Source: an uncultured bacterium
GTDB lineage: Bacteria; Cyanobacteriota; Vampirovibrionia; Gastranaerophilales; Gastranaerophilaceae
Length of the DNA: 64,000 bases
Direction of reading: 5' to 3'
NCBI GenBank assembly: GCA_902765215.1
Contig: CACWZA010000006.1
Coordinates: 1-64,000, forward strand
Shown here: positions 26,498 to 47,585 of the stretch, in pieces
How the letters are laid out: each line of letters starts with the position of its first letter
Numbering within the stretch: the stretch's first letter is position 1
The notes under the pieces: model-generated
The model's input: only the letters and a program-made list of their open reading frames with translations
Databases searched by the model: none
Told to the model about the DNA's origin: nothing
Translations under genes and position numbers: made by a program

Positions 26498-27103
26498 ATG
26501 GCTGATGTCAACGCTTTACAAAAATACCGCATATATCTGCAATATCTTGAAAAGAAACTGGGAGAATATTTTCAGGAGCAATCTCCTTATATATTCTGTA
26601 AAGCGGGTTGTTCATCGTGCTGTGAAAAAGGGGAATATCCGTTTACAGAGATTGAATTTTCGTACCTTATGCTCGGGGTTCAGACCTTATCCCCTGACAC
26701 AATAAAAAAGATTGAAGCGAATATAGAACAAATCAGAAAAGATAAAGCAGAATGTAAAGAGAAAAAATTTCTTCATGCCTGCCCGTTTCTGATTGATAAA
26801 AAATGCTCACTATACGATTTTCGCGGAATAATATGCAGAAGCCACGGACTCGCATTTTTTGATAAAGACCAACATTTACTTGTCCCTGCGTGTGTTGATG
26901 AGGGGTTGAACTATTCAAATGTATATGACTTTGAAAACAGAACCATCTCATCAGAAAAATACAAAGCAACGGGAATAAAACAGGAGCCGCTTGCACACAA
27001 TGTCGGGGTATATTATTTAACCAACAACGAAATAACAAAAGAACTAGGGCTTGATTTTGGTGAAATCAAACCAATGGCACACTTCTTCTTAGGCGAAGAT
27101 TAA
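26498..27103 (+). CDS. YkgJ-family cysteine cluster protein
   Basis: The 201-aa protein belongs to the YkgJ/UPF0153 group, small proteins thought to bind Zn or an Fe-S cluster. The eight-cysteine pattern is visible: KAGCSSCCEKG (near residue 30), HACPFLIDKKCSLYDFRGII (near 90-110) and ICRSHG. A role in metal chaperoning or in protein modification is guessed from family context only. The start has no ribosome binding site: TATCAT (26486-26491) lies six bases before the ATG, the spacing of a leaderless transcript. The 3' end overlaps the convergent gene at 27100 by four bases. Confidence 0.8.
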   Translation: MADVNALQKYRIYLQYLEKKLGEYFQEQSPYIFCKAGCSSCCEKGEYPFTEIEFSYLMLGVQTLSPDTIKKIEANIEQIRKDKAECKEKKFLHACPFLIDKKCSLYDFRGIICRSHGLAFFDKDQHLLVPACVDEGLNYSNVYDFENRTISSEKYKATGIKQEPLAHNVGVYYLTNNEITKELGLDFGEIKPMAHFFLGED

Positions 27104-31377: not shown

Positions 31378-32883
31378 ATGCGAAAAATATTAAGTGTTTT
31401 TATATCGGTTCTGTTTATAGGTTCATTTGTTTGTGCAAACGAACCGGTATCTGTTCAGCAAAATTATAAAGATGGAGAAATATACTTTATGGAAAACAAT
31501 GATACTGACAAAATAGCGGCTAACAACGAGATTTCGCTTTCAATAAAGAAAACAAAATCACCTTCCGTTGCGGGAATGTTTTATACGGCTGATAAAACTC
31601 AGCTCCAAAACCAGATAAATGAATTCAAAAAGAACAGTAAAAACACTTATATCACCCCAACCCGTGCCGTCATTGTGCCACATGCCGGGTTAGTATATTC
31701 AGGCAGACTTGCTTACGAGGGAATAAGCCAACTGGACAAAAATTTAAAAAACATCTTTATATTTGCACCTGCACACAGGGTTGCATTTGAAGGGATAGCC
31801 CTGACGAGTTATGATGCGTGGGCAACTCCGCTCGGAGAAATAAACATAAATAAAGACATAACAAAAGAATTGATATCAAAATTCGGCGGCAAGTACAATG
31901 ATAACGCACTAGCACCGGAACACGCAATAGAAGTAGAAATTCCGTTTATTCAAACTGTATTCAAAGATGTGAAAATAATTCCTGTTTTAATCGGAAAGGA
32001 AGATTATGACAAGGTTTATAAAATAATTTCTTACTATTATCCGAACCCTGAAAACGGGTTTGTAATATCATCAGATTTAAGTCATTATTTACCTGATGAC
32101 AGAGCAAAAAAAGTTGACGGTTATACGGCACAACTTATTGAAACCTGTACGACAAACAATTTCTCTCACGAGCTTGCCTGCGGGGCAACAGGAATTTTAG
32201 GGCTGATTCAGTTTGCAAACGAAAAGAATTATTCTCTTATAAGAATAGATATGGCGAACTCGAGTGATGCAACTTTTGAAAGGGACAGAGTTGTCGGATA
32301 TGGCTGCTGGTTCTTGTACGAAGGTGACAGAAACGAATTTATAAAAGAAAACTATTCTGATTTTATAATAAATCTCTGTAAAGATTCAATTAAGAATAAG
32401 AACACAAACAGCGCCGAAATCGTATACCCTAAGGTGCTGTCGGAATACGGAGCAGTCTTTGTCACACTGGAAAAATTCGGAAACCTGAGAGGATGTATAG
32501 GCTCAATCATTCCGCACCGTCCGCTGATTGATGACATTATAATAAATGCACAAAATGCGGCGTACTCTGATACAAGATTCAGACCTGTCGAAAAAGGTGA
32601 AATAAAAGATTTGAAAATAGCCGTTTCACTTCTTTCTGTTCCGAAACAGATGCACTTCAAAGATGAGGAAGATTTGCTGAACCAAATTCGTCCGAATATT
32701 GACGGAATCATTATCAAAGACGGAAACTATCAGGCAGTTTATTTACCTTCCGTATGGGAACAATTGCCTGACAAACGGGACTTTTTAAATTCATTAAAGG
32801 TTAAAGCCGGTTTACCCGCTTCTCACTTCTCAAAAACTTTTGAGGCATACAGGTTTGAAACCTCGTATATAAAGGAGCACTAA
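31378..32883 (+). CDS. Exported MEMO-AMMECR1 fusion protein (AmmeMemoRadiSam type)
   Basis: The 501-aa protein fuses two domains that are separate in many bacteria. After a signal peptide (MRKILSVFISVLFIGSFVCA) and a short linker, residues about 60-315 are MEMO-like: SVAGMFYTADKTQLQNQINE, VIVPHAGLVYSGRLAYEG, FAPAHRVAFEGIALTSYDAW, EHAIEVEIPFIQ and ISSDLSHYLPD with metal-type His/Asp. Residues about 330-500 are AMMECR1-like: GAVFVTLEKFGNLRGCIGSI, DTRFRPVEKGEI and LPSVWEQLPDKRDFL. In the AmmeMemoRadiSam system these accompany a radical SAM protein, not seen here. The signal peptide implies a location outside the cytosol, which is not the usual expectation. AAGGAATG precedes the ATG. Function unknown. 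Confidence 0.85.
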   Translation: MRKILSVFISVLFIGSFVCANEPVSVQQNYKDGEIYFMENNDTDKIAANNEISLSIKKTKSPSVAGMFYTADKTQLQNQINEFKKNSKNTYITPTRAVIVPHAGLVYSGRLAYEGISQLDKNLKNIFIFAPAHRVAFEGIALTSYDAWATPLGEININKDITKELISKFGGKYNDNALAPEHAIEVEIPFIQTVFKDVKIIPVLIGKEDYDKVYKIISYYYPNPENGFVISSDLSHYLPDDRAKKVDGYTAQLIETCTTNNFSHELACGATGILGLIQFANEKNYSLIRIDMANSSDATFERDRVVGYGCWFLYEGDRNEFIKENYSDFIINLCKDSIKNKNTNSAEIVYPKVLSEYGAVFVTLEKFGNLRGCIGSIIPHRPLIDDIIINAQNAAYSDTRFRPVEKGEIKDLKIAVSLLSVPKQMHFKDEEDLLNQIRPNIDGIIIKDGNYQAVYLPSVWEQLPDKRDFLNSLKVKAGLPASHFSKTFEAYRFETSYIKEH

Positions 32884-34673: not shown

Positions 34674-35546
34674 TTAGATTAAATCGCCTAAAGAATCAGT
34701 CAAATCGCCAAGTCCGTCGCCTATGGAATCAGTAACATCAGATATCCCGTCAGCAATTTTATCAAAGATTGATGTATGTCCTGCAATATCGTCTAAACCT
34801 GCAGCAACATCATCAGCCATTGGCTCAGCACCTGATTTGAATGCATTTTTAACAAACTCATAACCTGATTTTATTTCTTTTCCGCCGTTAACAATATCGT
34901 CAATAATAGCGAAATTTAAAGCAGCATCTGCCGCATCATCAATAGCATTACCTGCTGTATATGTTCTGTTCGGTTTTTGAGCAGAGTCAGGTTTTTGAAA
35001 AGCCCCGCCAAAATCAAAAGTAACAGTTTTATGTTTACCGGCCCTGCGCTTTTTGCCGTCTGCAGTTTTAATATCTATAACATTACCTTTTGGGTCAAGA
35101 TAAATTTGATCTGCTGCGGGCTTTTTACGGCGCTTTTTTGATGAAATTTCAAAAAATCTTTCAGGCTCATAAGATTCAACAATATCATTTGGGTTCACAG
35201 CGGAAACATCATTTTCCGGTTTAATATTACAAACAGATATCTTCATGTTTGGGTTGTTGTACTGTTCATGGCTTGCATATTCTCTTTCAAGATTTTTGTA
35301 CAAATTCCTGAGCGGTTTTCTTACCGCAATTCCCAAAAGGGCAAGCGCAGACACACCTGCGACAATAGCAACTGTTTTCCAGTTATAATTAACTCTTGAT
35401 TCTTCTTTAGCTTCAACCGGAATTAGAGGTTGTGGTTGCAAAGCTTGAGGTTGAACAGGCTGAGTCCTGTTAATATCCGTAATTGCTTTATACGACGGAG
35501 AAAAAGTTGAATAATTATTATAATTACAACATATTTTCATTTGCAA
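34674..35546 (-). CDS. Orphan membrane-anchored protein, 290 aa
   Basis: The protein begins MQMKICCNYNNYSTFSPSYK, a polar leader like those on other orphans here, then a Pro/Gln stretch, one membrane helix at about 57-74 (VAIVAGVSALALLGIAVRKP), and a soluble tail of 215 residues with a basic cluster SKKRRKKPAADQ near residue 136 and amphipathic repeats at the end (DGISDVTDSIGDGLGDLTDS). GAGG lies six bases before the first ATG. No family was recognised. Confidence 0.6.
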   Translation of the reverse strand: MQMKICCNYNNYSTFSPSYKAITDINRTQPVQPQALQPQPLIPVEAKEESRVNYNWKTVAIVAGVSALALLGIAVRKPLRNLYKNLEREYASHEQYNNPNMKISVCNIKPENDVSAVNPNDIVESYEPERFFEISSKKRRKKPAADQIYLDPKGNVIDIKTADGKKRRAGKHKTVTFDFGGAFQKPDSAQKPNRTYTAGNAIDDAADAALNFAIIDDIVNGGKEIKSGYEFVKNAFKSGAEPMADDVAAGLDDIAGHTSIFDKIADGISDVTDSIGDGLGDLTDSLGDLI

Positions 35547-42662: not shown

Positions 42663-43073
42663 CTAAAAAACGCTTTTCCCGTTACAAAGGAACTTCAAAA
42701 GTTTTCCTTCATAATTACGGGTTATTTCGTACAGGTAATTATTTTGCGGGTTAGAAGCCGAAACATATTCTTCTGTTTTGACCTGCAAGCCGTCTACAAT
42801 CTTGTTGATGATTGTTCTTACATAAGACTCGCCGTCTTTAGACTGAAAATGTTCAACCTGTTTCCCTTTGGAATATTCAAACCACCAGTTTTCGATAGGA
42901 TTACCCTTTTCATCAAATTTATCCTGTCTGATGAATCTGTCATGCTTAAGATCATATTCTTTGTGCAGGATTCTGACATTATTGTCATTGTATTCATCAG
43001 TAATACGATACCCTTTTCCAAGTACCGTTTTTGTAGTATTCCCAAAATTTATCTCGTTATTATATATCCTCAT
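42663..43073 (-). CDS. Orphan small protein, 136 aa
   Basis: The product is hydrophilic and aromatic-rich with beta-strand-like repeats (DKFDEKGNPIENWWFEYSKG, KLLKFLCNGKSVF at the end) reminiscent of MORN- or YD-like units, but too few for assignment. It begins MRIYNNEINFGNTTKT, matching the short N-terminal pattern seen on other orphans. No strong ribosome binding site precedes the ATG; AGGAGGAGATG lies about 60 bases upstream. Confidence 0.5.
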   Translation of the reverse strand: MRIYNNEINFGNTTKTVLGKGYRITDEYNDNNVRILHKEYDLKHDRFIRQDKFDEKGNPIENWWFEYSKGKQVEHFQSKDGESYVRTIINKIVDGLQVKTEEYVSASNPQNNYLYEITRNYEGKLLKFLCNGKSVF

Positions 43074-43498: not shown

Positions 43499-43843
43499 AT
43501 GCCATACACACAAGCAAGACTAACAATAGAACTGGACGAAGCACAAAAGAACGATTTACAGTCAAAACTGACAAATGCTGTCGGGAATGCATTTTCAAAA
43601 CCAGCTGCATACATTATGACAGAGATTGAAGACAAATGTTCACTCTATATGGGCGGAAACAAACTTGATAAAGGTGCATATTTGTCAGTTAGTCTGTTAG
43701 GCATGACAACAAAACAGGCATGCGAAGGTCTTACACAGCAAATTTGCTCAATTTTGAGTAACGATTACGGAATCGACGGCAAAAATGTTTATGTAACATA
43801 CCACCCTGAAAACCTTTGGGGCTGGAACAATATGATGTTCTAG
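43499..43843 (+). CDS. MIF/phenylpyruvate tautomerase family protein
   Basis: The 114-aa product matches the macrophage migration inhibitory factor group of the tautomerase superfamily. Pro follows the start Met (MPYTQARLTIELDEAQKND), giving the catalytic N-terminal proline after Met removal. The middle segment YIMTEIEDKCSLYMGGN and the end VYVTYHPENLWGWNNMMF are in line with MIF homologues. The start at 43499 has AAGGAGAG in front; a GTG 21 bases upstream would bury the catalytic proline and is rejected. In the cell it may tautomerise small keto-acids; host-facing roles of MIF mimics are known in parasites but cannot be assumed here. Confidence 0.88.
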   Translation: MPYTQARLTIELDEAQKNDLQSKLTNAVGNAFSKPAAYIMTEIEDKCSLYMGGNKLDKGAYLSVSLLGMTTKQACEGLTQQICSILSNDYGIDGKNVYVTYHPENLWGWNNMMF

Positions 43844-43911: not shown

Positions 43912-43961
43912 AATAATATTTTTACGGGTTTATATATAGACATAAACCTTAAGGAGTTATT

Positions 43962-44897
43962 ATGCAAATTTGCCCCGTCAACCGAACATATTTTTACGGT
44001 AACAATGCCCCAAAACGAATTATAACCGAATCACGCAACGAGAACACAAAAGACATCGACCTATTGCCGACAGAAGAAATGATTCGCAGAATCAATGATG
44101 AGGACAAAAAAGTTGCACTCGCAGTAGAAAAAGAGATACCAAATATTGCAAAAGCTGTGGACACAATCGCAGAACAGTTCAAAAAAGGCGGACGGTTGTA
44201 TTATTTCGGAGCAGGTACATCAGGCAGACTCGGGATATTAGACGCATCAGAATGTCCTCCGACCTACGGGGTTAAACCTGATTTGGTACAGGGTTTTATA
44301 GCAGGTGGTGAAACTGCCATCAGAAACGCCGTTGAAGGTGCTGAAGATAACTACGGTTTCGGGCTTGATGATGCAAATGTTTTGGGTAAAAACGATGTTT
44401 GCGTAGTTATATCGGCAAGCGGAAACCCTAAATATTTGATGGGAGTACTGGACAGGGCAAAAGAGAGAGGGGCAAAAACGGTTGCAATAACATGTAACCC
44501 TAAAGGCAGAATTTTAGATGAATCAGATATCGGTATTTGTACTGTTGTAGGCCCTGAAGCGATAACCGGTTCAAGCCGTATGAAAGCGGGAACGGCGCAA
44601 AAGATGGTACTCAATATGCTCTCAACAGGGGCAATGGTAAAGACTGGCAAAACATACGAAAACTATATGATAGATGTAATGCCGACAAACCTTAAACTGA
44701 GAGACAGAGCGACAAGGATTGTTTCCGAGCTTGCGGAGGTCGATACCCAACAGGCACGACAGACTTTGAATAATGCCGACTGGAAAGTTAAAACAGCAAT
44801 TACTATGCTCAAATCAGGACTTGATAAAGACGAGGCAAACGAACTTTTAGAAAACAATGACGGAGTTTTGAGAAAAGCATTGAATATTATCGGATAA
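43962..44897 (+). CDS. murQ: N-acetylmuramic acid 6-phosphate etherase MurQ, with N-terminal extension
   Basis: MurQ cleaves the lactyl ether of MurNAc-6-phosphate in peptidoglycan recycling. The 311-aa product contains ESRNENTKDIDLLPTEEM, the SIS-domain motif YYFGAGTSGRLGILDASECP (near residue 85), VVISASGNPKYLMG and VGPEAITGSSRMKAGTAQKM with the catalytic Glu region, and a UBA-like C-terminal helical end. The first 20 residues (MQICPVNRTYFYGNNAPKR) precede the normal MurQ start and match short leaders on orphan proteins here. AAGGAG directly before this ATG supports the long form. No amgK, nagZ or PTS gene is adjacent. Confidence 0.95.
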   Translation: MQICPVNRTYFYGNNAPKRIITESRNENTKDIDLLPTEEMIRRINDEDKKVALAVEKEIPNIAKAVDTIAEQFKKGGRLYYFGAGTSGRLGILDASECPPTYGVKPDLVQGFIAGGETAIRNAVEGAEDNYGFGLDDANVLGKNDVCVVISASGNPKYLMGVLDRAKERGAKTVAITCNPKGRILDESDIGICTVVGPEAITGSSRMKAGTAQKMVLNMLSTGAMVKTGKTYENYMIDVMPTNLKLRDRATRIVSELAEVDTQQARQTLNNADWKVKTAITMLKSGLDKDEANELLENNDGVLRKALNIIG

Positions 44898-45293: not shown

Positions 45294-45962
45294 ATGAACG
45301 ATATATCTTTCACATCGAGAATAAACTTTGTAAACACCAAGACCTTTGACGAATGTTTCAGAAAAGGTGATTATGTTGATTTTCGTGCAAATCATGATTT
45401 GACGGCACTTGATATGATAACGGTTAAGGCTGTTGAAAAAATGTTCGGGAACAAGATAAAACACCCGAGGTTAGATGTTTTGAAGTCAGACGAGTTTTAC
45501 ACAGACACCGTAAGAACCTGCACCGCAGGCGGGGTAGTCAACACAAAAACGGGAGAAGCGGCAGGGTTTCATATATATGACAGTCTGTTCAATTCGGAAA
45601 AGGTTGACGATATTTTGGAAAATATTTTCGGACGGGTTGAGAACCCTGACAGAGCCTTGATATTAGGAAGTAAACATCTCAGAACATCAGTATATTCTAT
45701 CCCGATTTTCCAAAAAATTCTTGACGGGATAATAAAGAGAGTGCCGAATGTAACTGTTTTCAGAGAACACTCGTTACCATTTTCTGAAAGCAATATGCAC
45801 TATTCACTAAAAAACGACACATGGACAATACAATCTATGTACCGTCCGCTGACCGATTATAAAGAGTTTGATATATCATCAAAAGAAGAGCTGGACAAAT
45901 GTTTCAAAAAGGTAAAAATCGCTGACGGTGACATTTTGAGCTTCGGCGAGGTGACAAAATAG
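45294..45962 (+). CDS. Orphan soluble protein, 222 aa
   Basis: The protein starts MNDISFTSRINFVNTKTFDE, one of the recurrent short leaders. The rest is mixed alpha/beta, without signal or membrane segments; DRALILGSKHLRTSVYSIPI near residue 120 and the FREHSLPFSESNMHYS stretch look enzyme-like, but no family was recognised. TATTCT lies four bases before the ATG with no ribosome binding site. It follows the small secreted protein by 71 bases. Confidence 0.55.
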   Translation: MNDISFTSRINFVNTKTFDECFRKGDYVDFRANHDLTALDMITVKAVEKMFGNKIKHPRLDVLKSDEFYTDTVRTCTAGGVVNTKTGEAAGFHIYDSLFNSEKVDDILENIFGRVENPDRALILGSKHLRTSVYSIPIFQKILDGIIKRVPNVTVFREHSLPFSESNMHYSLKNDTWTIQSMYRPLTDYKEFDISSKEELDKCFKKVKIADGDILSFGEVTK

Positions 45963-45994: not shown

Positions 45995-46870
45995 TTAAAC
46001 TTTTTTCTGATAAATACCTTTATACACCTGAGTAAGAGGGTTAAGGATACCTGAATCTTTTACGGGTTTTTCAAATTCATAAGGATCTGTAATAAAATAG
46101 GCATTTGGTTTGAGGGTACGCACTATATTTGACAATGTTTCCATATACTCGTTTTCCGATACTATGTATGGCAGCACATTATTCGCAGATACAACATCAA
46201 AGTTTCTGTCGGGATATTCTTTTATAACATCCTGAACCCGACTGTCCCATCTTGCTTTTTGAGGATTGCCGTAGGTTTCTCTGACAAAATCAAATATTTC
46301 GTCATTCACTCTGGCGTGGCATGCTTTCACCTTTGGATTCTGTATAAAATCGATGAGCAGGTAATGAGAATTCTTTTCATTTTGTACTTTCGGAGCAAGC
46401 CAATCGCTATATGATTCTTTGACAAAAGATGATTTTGCAAATCGGGGATAAACTTCATAGTCAAATAAATCAGAGAAGGCAGATTGTTTGAGCTTTTGCA
46501 GAGAGGGTTCTGACTGCAGATCAACGACATGCAAATCCAGATTCGCTTTAAGCGGTTTGTCTTTTAAAATACCTTTTATTGAAGCAAGGTAGGAAAACGG
46601 TTCCTGAGAGTTCCCAATACCGATTATCAATATCTTTTTTTGCTTGTTGTCATTTTGTTTAAATAGACGAAAGAATGTATTTTCCACATTACAATATGCA
46701 CCTGAAAGCAGGGCAACCGCACCGCGTCTGAAATAACAGGATTTCGTGCTGTTATATTTATAAAAATCGGGATGAGCCGTAAAAGTCGGTTCTTTCTTAC
46801 GGCAGGAATACGGATTATTGACAGTTGAACTCATAATCGGTGTAACTCGCATATTTGAATTAAACCCCAT
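45995..46870 (-). CDS. SAM-dependent methyltransferase-like protein (CheR-like)
   Basis: The fold pattern is that of class I methyltransferases: ILIIGIGNSQEPFSYLASI (SAM-binding glycine loop), LDLHVVDLQSE (acidic residue after the second strand) and FDVVSANNVLPYIVSENEYM followed by IVRTLKPNAYFITDPYEFEK. The segment order and the FDVVSANNVLPYI motif resemble CheR. The start is uncertain: ATG at 46870 or 46852; a TTG farther out at 46918 is unlikely. The N-terminus (MRVTPIMSSTVNNPYSCRKK in the shorter form) is polar. No chemotaxis genes are nearby. The substrate is unknown. Confidence 0.65.
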   Translation of the reverse strand: MGFNSNMRVTPIMSSTVNNPYSCRKKEPTFTAHPDFYKYNSTKSCYFRRGAVALLSGAYCNVENTFFRLFKQNDNKQKKILIIGIGNSQEPFSYLASIKGILKDKPLKANLDLHVVDLQSEPSLQKLKQSAFSDLFDYEVYPRFAKSSFVKESYSDWLAPKVQNEKNSHYLLIDFIQNPKVKACHARVNDEIFDFVRETYGNPQKARWDSRVQDVIKEYPDRNFDVVSANNVLPYIVSENEYMETLSNIVRTLKPNAYFITDPYEFEKPVKDSGILNPLTQVYKGIYQKKV

Positions 46871-46958: not shown

Positions 46959-47585
46959 CTAAAGCATGTACTTATTAAGTATCTTGTCAAAATCGGATAC
47001 GGATATGAAAAAATCTACATCTGCGCCGTTTGAATATTTATTTGCAGGGAACTTGTCGAATAATCTGTATGCTTTTTGGTTTCGTTTGTCTGTTGTCCAA
47101 CTTATTGTATTCAGCCCTTTTGACTTTGTTTTCTCTGAGATACGTAATGCCATATTAAGCAAGGTTTTTACTGTCATTTTGGAATCTTTTATATCGGGGC
47201 TGACAGCGAGAAAGTTTATATATGAATTGGACCCGTTGTAGGATAATGAATAACAACCTAAAATCTTATCCTCTTGCTTAACTACTTCTAACTCCGTATC
47301 CCTCACTAACGGACAATATTTCTGAAGCAATAACCATATCTTTTGGGATAAATTTTCATAGAACCTGCCAAAAATATTTTTTTTACCTGTCAGACCTGCA
47401 GTACCTGCAGACTCGTTAAACGAATCAACAAAGAAGTTCAGCACATCACTAACCTCCTGTTTCCCGTTAACACTTTTAAATACAGGCTCCGTCGGTGATG
47501 CTGAACCACCGCCATAAACCCCAAACCTTTGTCTGGATAGATTTTGCCTTATATTCTGCACACAATTTGGTCTTATTTCTATCAT
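46959..47585 (-). CDS. Possible GNAT-family acetyltransferase, 208 aa
   Basis: After a polar leader (MIEIRPNCVQNIRQNLSRQR and a Gly/Ser stretch) the C-terminal 120 residues follow a GNAT-like pattern: LEVVKQEDKILGCYSLSYNG, YINFLAVSPDIKDSKMTVKT with the pre-binding-loop position, ISWTTDKRNQKAYRLFDKF as the NxxA-Y-F helix region. The acetyl-CoA loop (Q/RxxGxG/A) is not well conserved, so activity is uncertain. TAGAAT lies nine bases before the ATG. Confidence 0.5.
   Translation of the reverse strand: MIEIRPNCVQNIRQNLSRQRFGVYGGGSASPTEPVFKSVNGKQEVSDVLNFFVDSFNESAGTAGLTGKKNIFGRFYENLSQKIWLLLQKYCPLVRDTELEVVKQEDKILGCYSLSYNGSNSYINFLAVSPDIKDSKMTVKTLLNMALRISEKTKSKGLNTISWTTDKRNQKAYRLFDKFPANKYSNGADVDFFISVSDFDKILNKYML

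Follow-up and report, generated by a model that had tools for sequence, protein, structure and literature searches.

The window analysed here, a stretch of 64,000 nucleotides, is contig C6 of the 2.15 Mb genome (47 contigs) of an uncultured bacterium of the Gastranaerophilales, whose closest named relatives, recorded as Candidatus Gastranaerophilales or uncultured bacterium, are genomes from rumen and gut. Members of this order are common gut bacteria that are known mostly from metagenome assemblies. The window contains a whole gene for MurQ (N-acetylmuramic acid 6-phosphate etherase) in which a short leader precedes the enzyme domain, together with other genes whose products begin, or may begin, with a leader of this kind:

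43951..43956, forward strand: AAGGAG ribosome-binding site just ahead of the ATG that starts the long MurQ form (sequence)
43962-44897, forward strand: whole murQ gene with leader, 311 amino acids (open reading frame and homology)
43962..44015, forward strand: MurQ leader, residues 1-18, MQICPVNRTYFYGNNAPK (homology boundary, model score, orthologs)
44016..44897, forward strand: MurQ domain; DASECPPT and EGAED are invariant segments of the alignment (homology)
35481..35540, reverse strand: leader MKICCNYNNYSTFSPSYK.. of an orphan 288-residue protein, 34674-35540 (model score)
43038..43073, reverse strand: leader MRIYNNEINFGN of an orphan 136-residue protein, 42663-43073 (model, p=0.003)
46763..46852, reverse strand: leader MRVTPIMSSTVNNPYSCRKKEPTFTAHPDF of a methyltransferase-like protein, 45995-46852 (model, p=0.005)
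45294..45329, forward strand: leader MNDISFTSRINF of an orphan 222-residue protein, 45294-45962 (family conservation)
47511..47585, reverse strand: possible leader MIEIRPNCVQNIRQNLSRQRFGVYG of a GNAT-like protein, 46959-47585 (model, p=0.06)

The window MurQ is a full-length member of its family, matching TIGR00274 over residues 20-308 with 388.5 bits (cut-off 302). Since homology begins only at residue 18-20, residues 1-18 are an addition to the enzyme, close to the roughly 20 extra residues that the initial annotation had counted, and the strong ribosome binding site that it had described before the long form is the AAGGAG listed above. Its view that the leader does not look like a Sec signal also holds: the leader is polar, MQICPVNRTYFYGNNAPKR contains no hydrophobic run, and MurQ, like the other leaders listed with it, is retained by a filter against hydrophobic stretches at the N-terminus. 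By inspection, there is no RR of a Tat signal in the MurQ leader or in those of its orthologs. Scored with a model that was never trained on this genome, the MurQ leader reaches p=0.0003 against internal methionines.

The orphan protein at 34674 scores equally well (p=0.0003 against internal methionines), its best start being the ATG at 35540 and not the TTG two codons upstream. The leader of the 45294 protein scores poorly (p=0.07) and is backed instead by strong conservation. Among the similar leaders listed earlier, those at 34674, 42663 and 46852 therefore stand on their score and that at 45294 on its conservation, while the one at 27100 is unsupported by the model (p=0.08). Two further observations concern other genes of the window. 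Directly 5' of the leader MurQ lies a homolog of the macrophage migration inhibitory factor (MIF) family (43499-43843), and the same two neighbours are found in locus L136 (951-1295, with MurQ then at 1555); because MIF requires a free N-terminal proline, this homolog is expected to lack a leader. By eye, the protein encoded at 31378-32883 resembles a fusion of MEMO-type and AMMECR1-type parts with a signal peptide.

Anatomy and frequency of the leader

The leader starts with Met, any residue, and Ile or Val at position 3, often with a second aliphatic residue or Pro at positions 5-6. A spacer of variable length follows, disordered-looking, rich in Asn, Ser, Thr and Gln and poor in acidic residues, and leads to a core of the form [VIPT]-[SN]-F-x-[GAS], whose Phe lies anywhere between positions 9 and 39. 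Carriers with named domains include an AAA ATPase, GNAT proteins, CheR-type and other methyltransferases, MurQ, a nucleotidyltransferase with a weaker leader and a protein with a weak DnaJ match; the majority of leader proteins lack a named domain, many are small orphans, and some have hydrophobic segments or are membrane proteins. No named Pfam or NCBIfam domain covers any leader in the proteins scanned. In the literature searched, from which subscription papers were largely outside the scope, neither the leader nor a non-flagellar type III system of this order is described. A different recurrent N-terminus, MG[ML][AS][AS]SQ[AV]R[LFY]L.L..R...., opens proteins of 346-1008 residues (L015:3730, L010:18367, L012:10389 and L005:12650) and looks to be of the structural-subunit type.

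To count leaders, we sampled about 40% of the genome, namely 40 stretches of 20 kb plus the window, with genes called by a home-made caller, so that start codons are predictions. Loose regular expressions were hardly enriched and, like an unsupervised EM model, failed to separate the leader from Sec signals and nucleotide-binding starts. Both were therefore replaced by a two-block model trained on 18 hand-picked leaders from other genomes of the order; the window genome was held out, and the training genomes were excluded as test sets. The simple core pattern alone was only weakly enriched at N-termini of the sample, its reversed control was slightly enriched too, and Ile and Lys are frequent at positions 2-5 across all genes.

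The initial annotation had looked to a statistical motif across the proteome, and within the sample such a motif is real: a score above 2 is reached by 25 of 658 N-termini, where composition-preserving shuffles predict 6.7 (p=5e-8), and by 16 of 3334 internal methionines (p=1.3e-10). With the window removed, the count is 22 of 602 against 5.8 in shuffles (p=2.3e-7). The excess also persists when residues 1-6 are held fixed and the remainder is shuffled (p from 0.0006 to 0.03, depending on the threshold), so that the position of the Phe core is itself informative. Among 77 named loci surrounding MurQ, which form an independent set, 11 of 435 scored as leaders against 3 of 1740 (p=4e-6), although four of the eleven are false positives, copies of one membrane protein. 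The sister orders f8, f12, f9/f14 and f10/f11 (628 genes) gave no leader excess, and no leader genes adjoin each other in the own-genome sample. Extrapolation yields some 50-60 leader genes per genome at this threshold, a rough figure, as the model misses some leaders (that at 45294, for example) and admits false ones.

Conservation in MurQ and in unrelated families

The initial annotation had also asked whether MurQ of relatives has the leader. Orthologs of the leader type, 77-85% identical, occur in three relatives of the genus and begin with MLICPVKYSNTTFCSNEKKNNNSCGAK-IITE, MQIYPSQCYRPVFRGDNSKNSCGAK-IITE and MYICPTYYSSNVFKSVNKNNDSSCGAK-IITE. All three keep a leader of the form MxIxP...F-x-[GS], with Ile3, Pro5 and F-x-[GS] constant while length and other residues vary, and a ribosome-binding site similar to AAGGAG precedes the long form in each. 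The codons for Pro5 and Phe differ synonymously between the orthologs; since the residues stay, selection acts at the protein level. The genome's second MurQ (C4:37275) has no leader and begins with MSEIITEYRNENTKDID, and all 77 MurQs at other Gastranaerophilales loci likewise begin right at the domain. As judged from these genes, the predicted leader is the mark of a second, genus-specific MurQ copy, the ordinary copy being unmarked.

Homologs of the 222-residue protein at 45294 are present in 13 of 57 other genomes searched, and twelve of them begin like MNNISFTSRIRF, MKNKSVSFTSKIRF, MDNRISFTSNIRF or MEKDITFTSTIRP. The stretch ISFTSRI is kept in 13 sequences of the family, S8 and I10 being invariant, and residues 4-12 (ISFTSRINF) form its most conserved nine-residue window, with an identity of 0.67 against 0.29 in the rest. 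Even between homologs that are 24-37% identical, this core is at least as conserved as the Cys motif RTCTAGG. The protein has no Pfam match; C76 and H93, invariant in the 13 sequences (RTCTAGG ... FH), suggest a Cys-His enzyme, perhaps with the fold of a CheD-like deamidase. Elsewhere in the genome, two GNAT-like proteins start MDSINFTANRI and MNRINFTANLI, and in a membrane-type family found in 53 of 58 genomes, three copies at 26% identity all retain a spacer rich in Asn and F-[KQ]-G ahead of a conserved NPM. As the comparison of these families shows, the leader is kept by selection at the level of the predicted protein.

Export apparatus, interpretation and known signals

FHIPEP, the FlhA/SctV gate, is present in 57 of 57 genomes of the order, and this universal form is a second type, distinct from the FlhA of flagellated members. 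Flagellin is absent from the genus of the window and from 27 of 58 genomes searched. The genome of the window encodes FliF, FliH, FlhA, FliP, FliQ, FliR, a FliMN-type C-ring protein and FlhB, and hence has an export gate; by inspection of N-termini, the operon of relatives additionally holds rod-protein-like proteins and FliI. A near-complete flagellum-type export apparatus is found in genomes without flagellin. Also encoded is a soluble protein that fuses a novel N-terminal part to the cytosolic domain of FlhA:

G000:C12:3265-8960 (L018), G000:C2:42783-46766 (L006) and G000:C15 (L021:18605): export apparatus loci; in relatives, L236-L255
G000:C2:106405-107862 (L132:6405-7862): soluble protein, novel N-terminal part fused to the FlhA cytosolic domain

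This soluble FlhA-C paralog occurs at full length in 54 of 57 genomes of the order and in the sister orders yields only partial matches, to FHIPEP proteins. Genome G010 lacks it but retains a leader-type family whose alignment begins at residue 1, which weakens the candidacy of the protein as sole receptor. The neighbourhood of the FHIPEP operon has no excess of leader genes (6 of 285), and the sister orders have FHIPEP but no leaders. A natural loss of the gate was considered for genome G136, where a single gene is missing and FliP is still present, so that no knock-out genome exists within the set.

Because unrelated families share and conserve the leader, a targeting signal fits best, and we regard it as probably a lineage-specific N-terminal sorting, or docking, signal of the Gastranaerophilales. 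Of the 'targeting or secretion tag' proposed originally, the sorting part is consistent with this shared and conserved leader, while secretion stays putative. The leader would have been added to unrelated proteins, among them MurQ, GNATs, AAA ATPases, methyltransferases, membrane proteins and orphans; a putative receptor would read the aliphatic start and the Phe core and take each protein to one place, and the soluble FlhA-C-like protein of the order may be that receptor. Our preferred, tentative destination is the conserved flagellum-type type III export apparatus, which is kept throughout the order even where flagellin has been lost. We hold this putative route with reserve because the leader is more tightly defined than known type III signals, the gate motif Fxxx-phi is not enriched in leaders, leader genes lie away from the operon, leaderless sister orders have the gate and the known substrate of MurQ is intracellular. 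Read in this way, and with the same reserve, the leader could be an undescribed order-wide signal on at least about 50 proteins per genome that serves a dedicated export or localisation route, possibly derived from the flagellum, with a soluble FlhA-C-like receptor, and persisting without flagella.

Almost as likely as type III export is docking inside the cell, in which a short linear motif recruits enzymes to a scaffold, a pole or a compartment in the cytoplasm or at the membrane. The strong conservation of a short core beside a variable spacer agrees with docking, as do leaders on enzymes of cytosolic fold such as MurQ, whose substrate is cytosolic, and AAA ATPases, and on proteins with hydrophobic segments as well; however, no scaffold is known, and a metabolic scaffold would less typically gather so wide a mix of functions and so many orphans. 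We disfavour the view that the leaders merely resemble each other in composition, with polar Asn/Ser-rich N-termini arising in an AT-rich order and MxI from translation-initiation preferences. The near lack of enrichment of loose patterns, the slight enrichment of the reversed core and the commonness of Ile and Lys at positions 2-5 would suit such an origin, but the held-out data exceed shuffles that preserve composition, no other stretch of the 45294 family is as conserved as the core, and a whole leader has been added to MurQ and retained in its orthologs.

A route through an Omp85-type or other envelope pore, which would read the leader much as a Phe-containing plastid transit peptide is read, we consider quite unlikely. 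The leader is polar, acid-poor and has a conserved Phe, Omp85 recognises the invariant N-terminal Phe of cyanelle precursors (PMC2222254), and Melainabacteria are related to Cyanobacteria (PMC4451040); nevertheless, the argument is one of resemblance alone, and transit peptides act in import, not export. Least credible of all is that the leaders are untranslated in-frame sequence upstream of wrongly predicted starts: the starts do come from our home-made caller, but each of the four MurQ orthologs has a ribosome-binding site ahead of its long form, the codons of Pro5 and Phe change while the residues stay, and conservation of the leader extends over 13 sequences of the 45294 family. Should the leader direct export, its carriers would amount to a ready inventory of what these bacteria release, and the apparatus retained in the absence of flagella would gain a use; should it instead serve internal docking, it would point to a subcellular hub.

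Finally, we compared the leader and its carriers with known systems. Compared with members of the MurQ family (4lzj, 1nri, 4s12), the window MurQ is alike over the whole etherase domain, with the key segments invariant, and differs by the 18 added N-terminal residues. Plastid and cyanelle transit peptides (PMC2222254) are likewise polar N-terminal extensions with an important Phe on soluble folds, but serve import into a eukaryote organelle.

For type III signals of Pseudomonas syringae, the rules call for position 3 or 4 to be aliphatic or Pro, for the first 12 residues to be free of acidic ones and for Ser to exceed 10% of the first 50 (PMC3338616). The leaders are similarly N-terminal and polar, with an aliphatic residue or Pro at 3-4 and a tendency to few acidic residues in the first 12. 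Of 57 leaders, 93% obey the first rule, compared with 43% of the remaining polar N-termini, a comparison that is partly circular, as the model itself includes position 3, and residues 2-12 are free of acidic residues in 67% of leaders against 20%, again partly circular, with the window MurQ among those that comply. The Ser content is reached in only 23% of leaders, the window MurQ having one Ser in 50. The leader has a defined and conserved Phe core, as in the 45294 family, in contrast to the high mutability of known type III signals (PMC3338616).

Early flagellar subunits such as FlgD combine an N-terminal hydrophobic signal at residues 2-5 with a gate recognition motif at 36-40 (PMC8983047). 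The organism's own rod proteins have no leader, and the leader departs from the flagellar arrangement in its very variable spacing. In 20 leaders, a phi residue at +4 of the Phe, as in the gate motif Fxxx-phi, is no more frequent than in the background (0.35 against 0.34); the motif is present in the 45294 family. What the leader shares with the early flagellar signals is their two-part design, a hydrophobic start and, after a flexible spacer, a Phe-containing motif.
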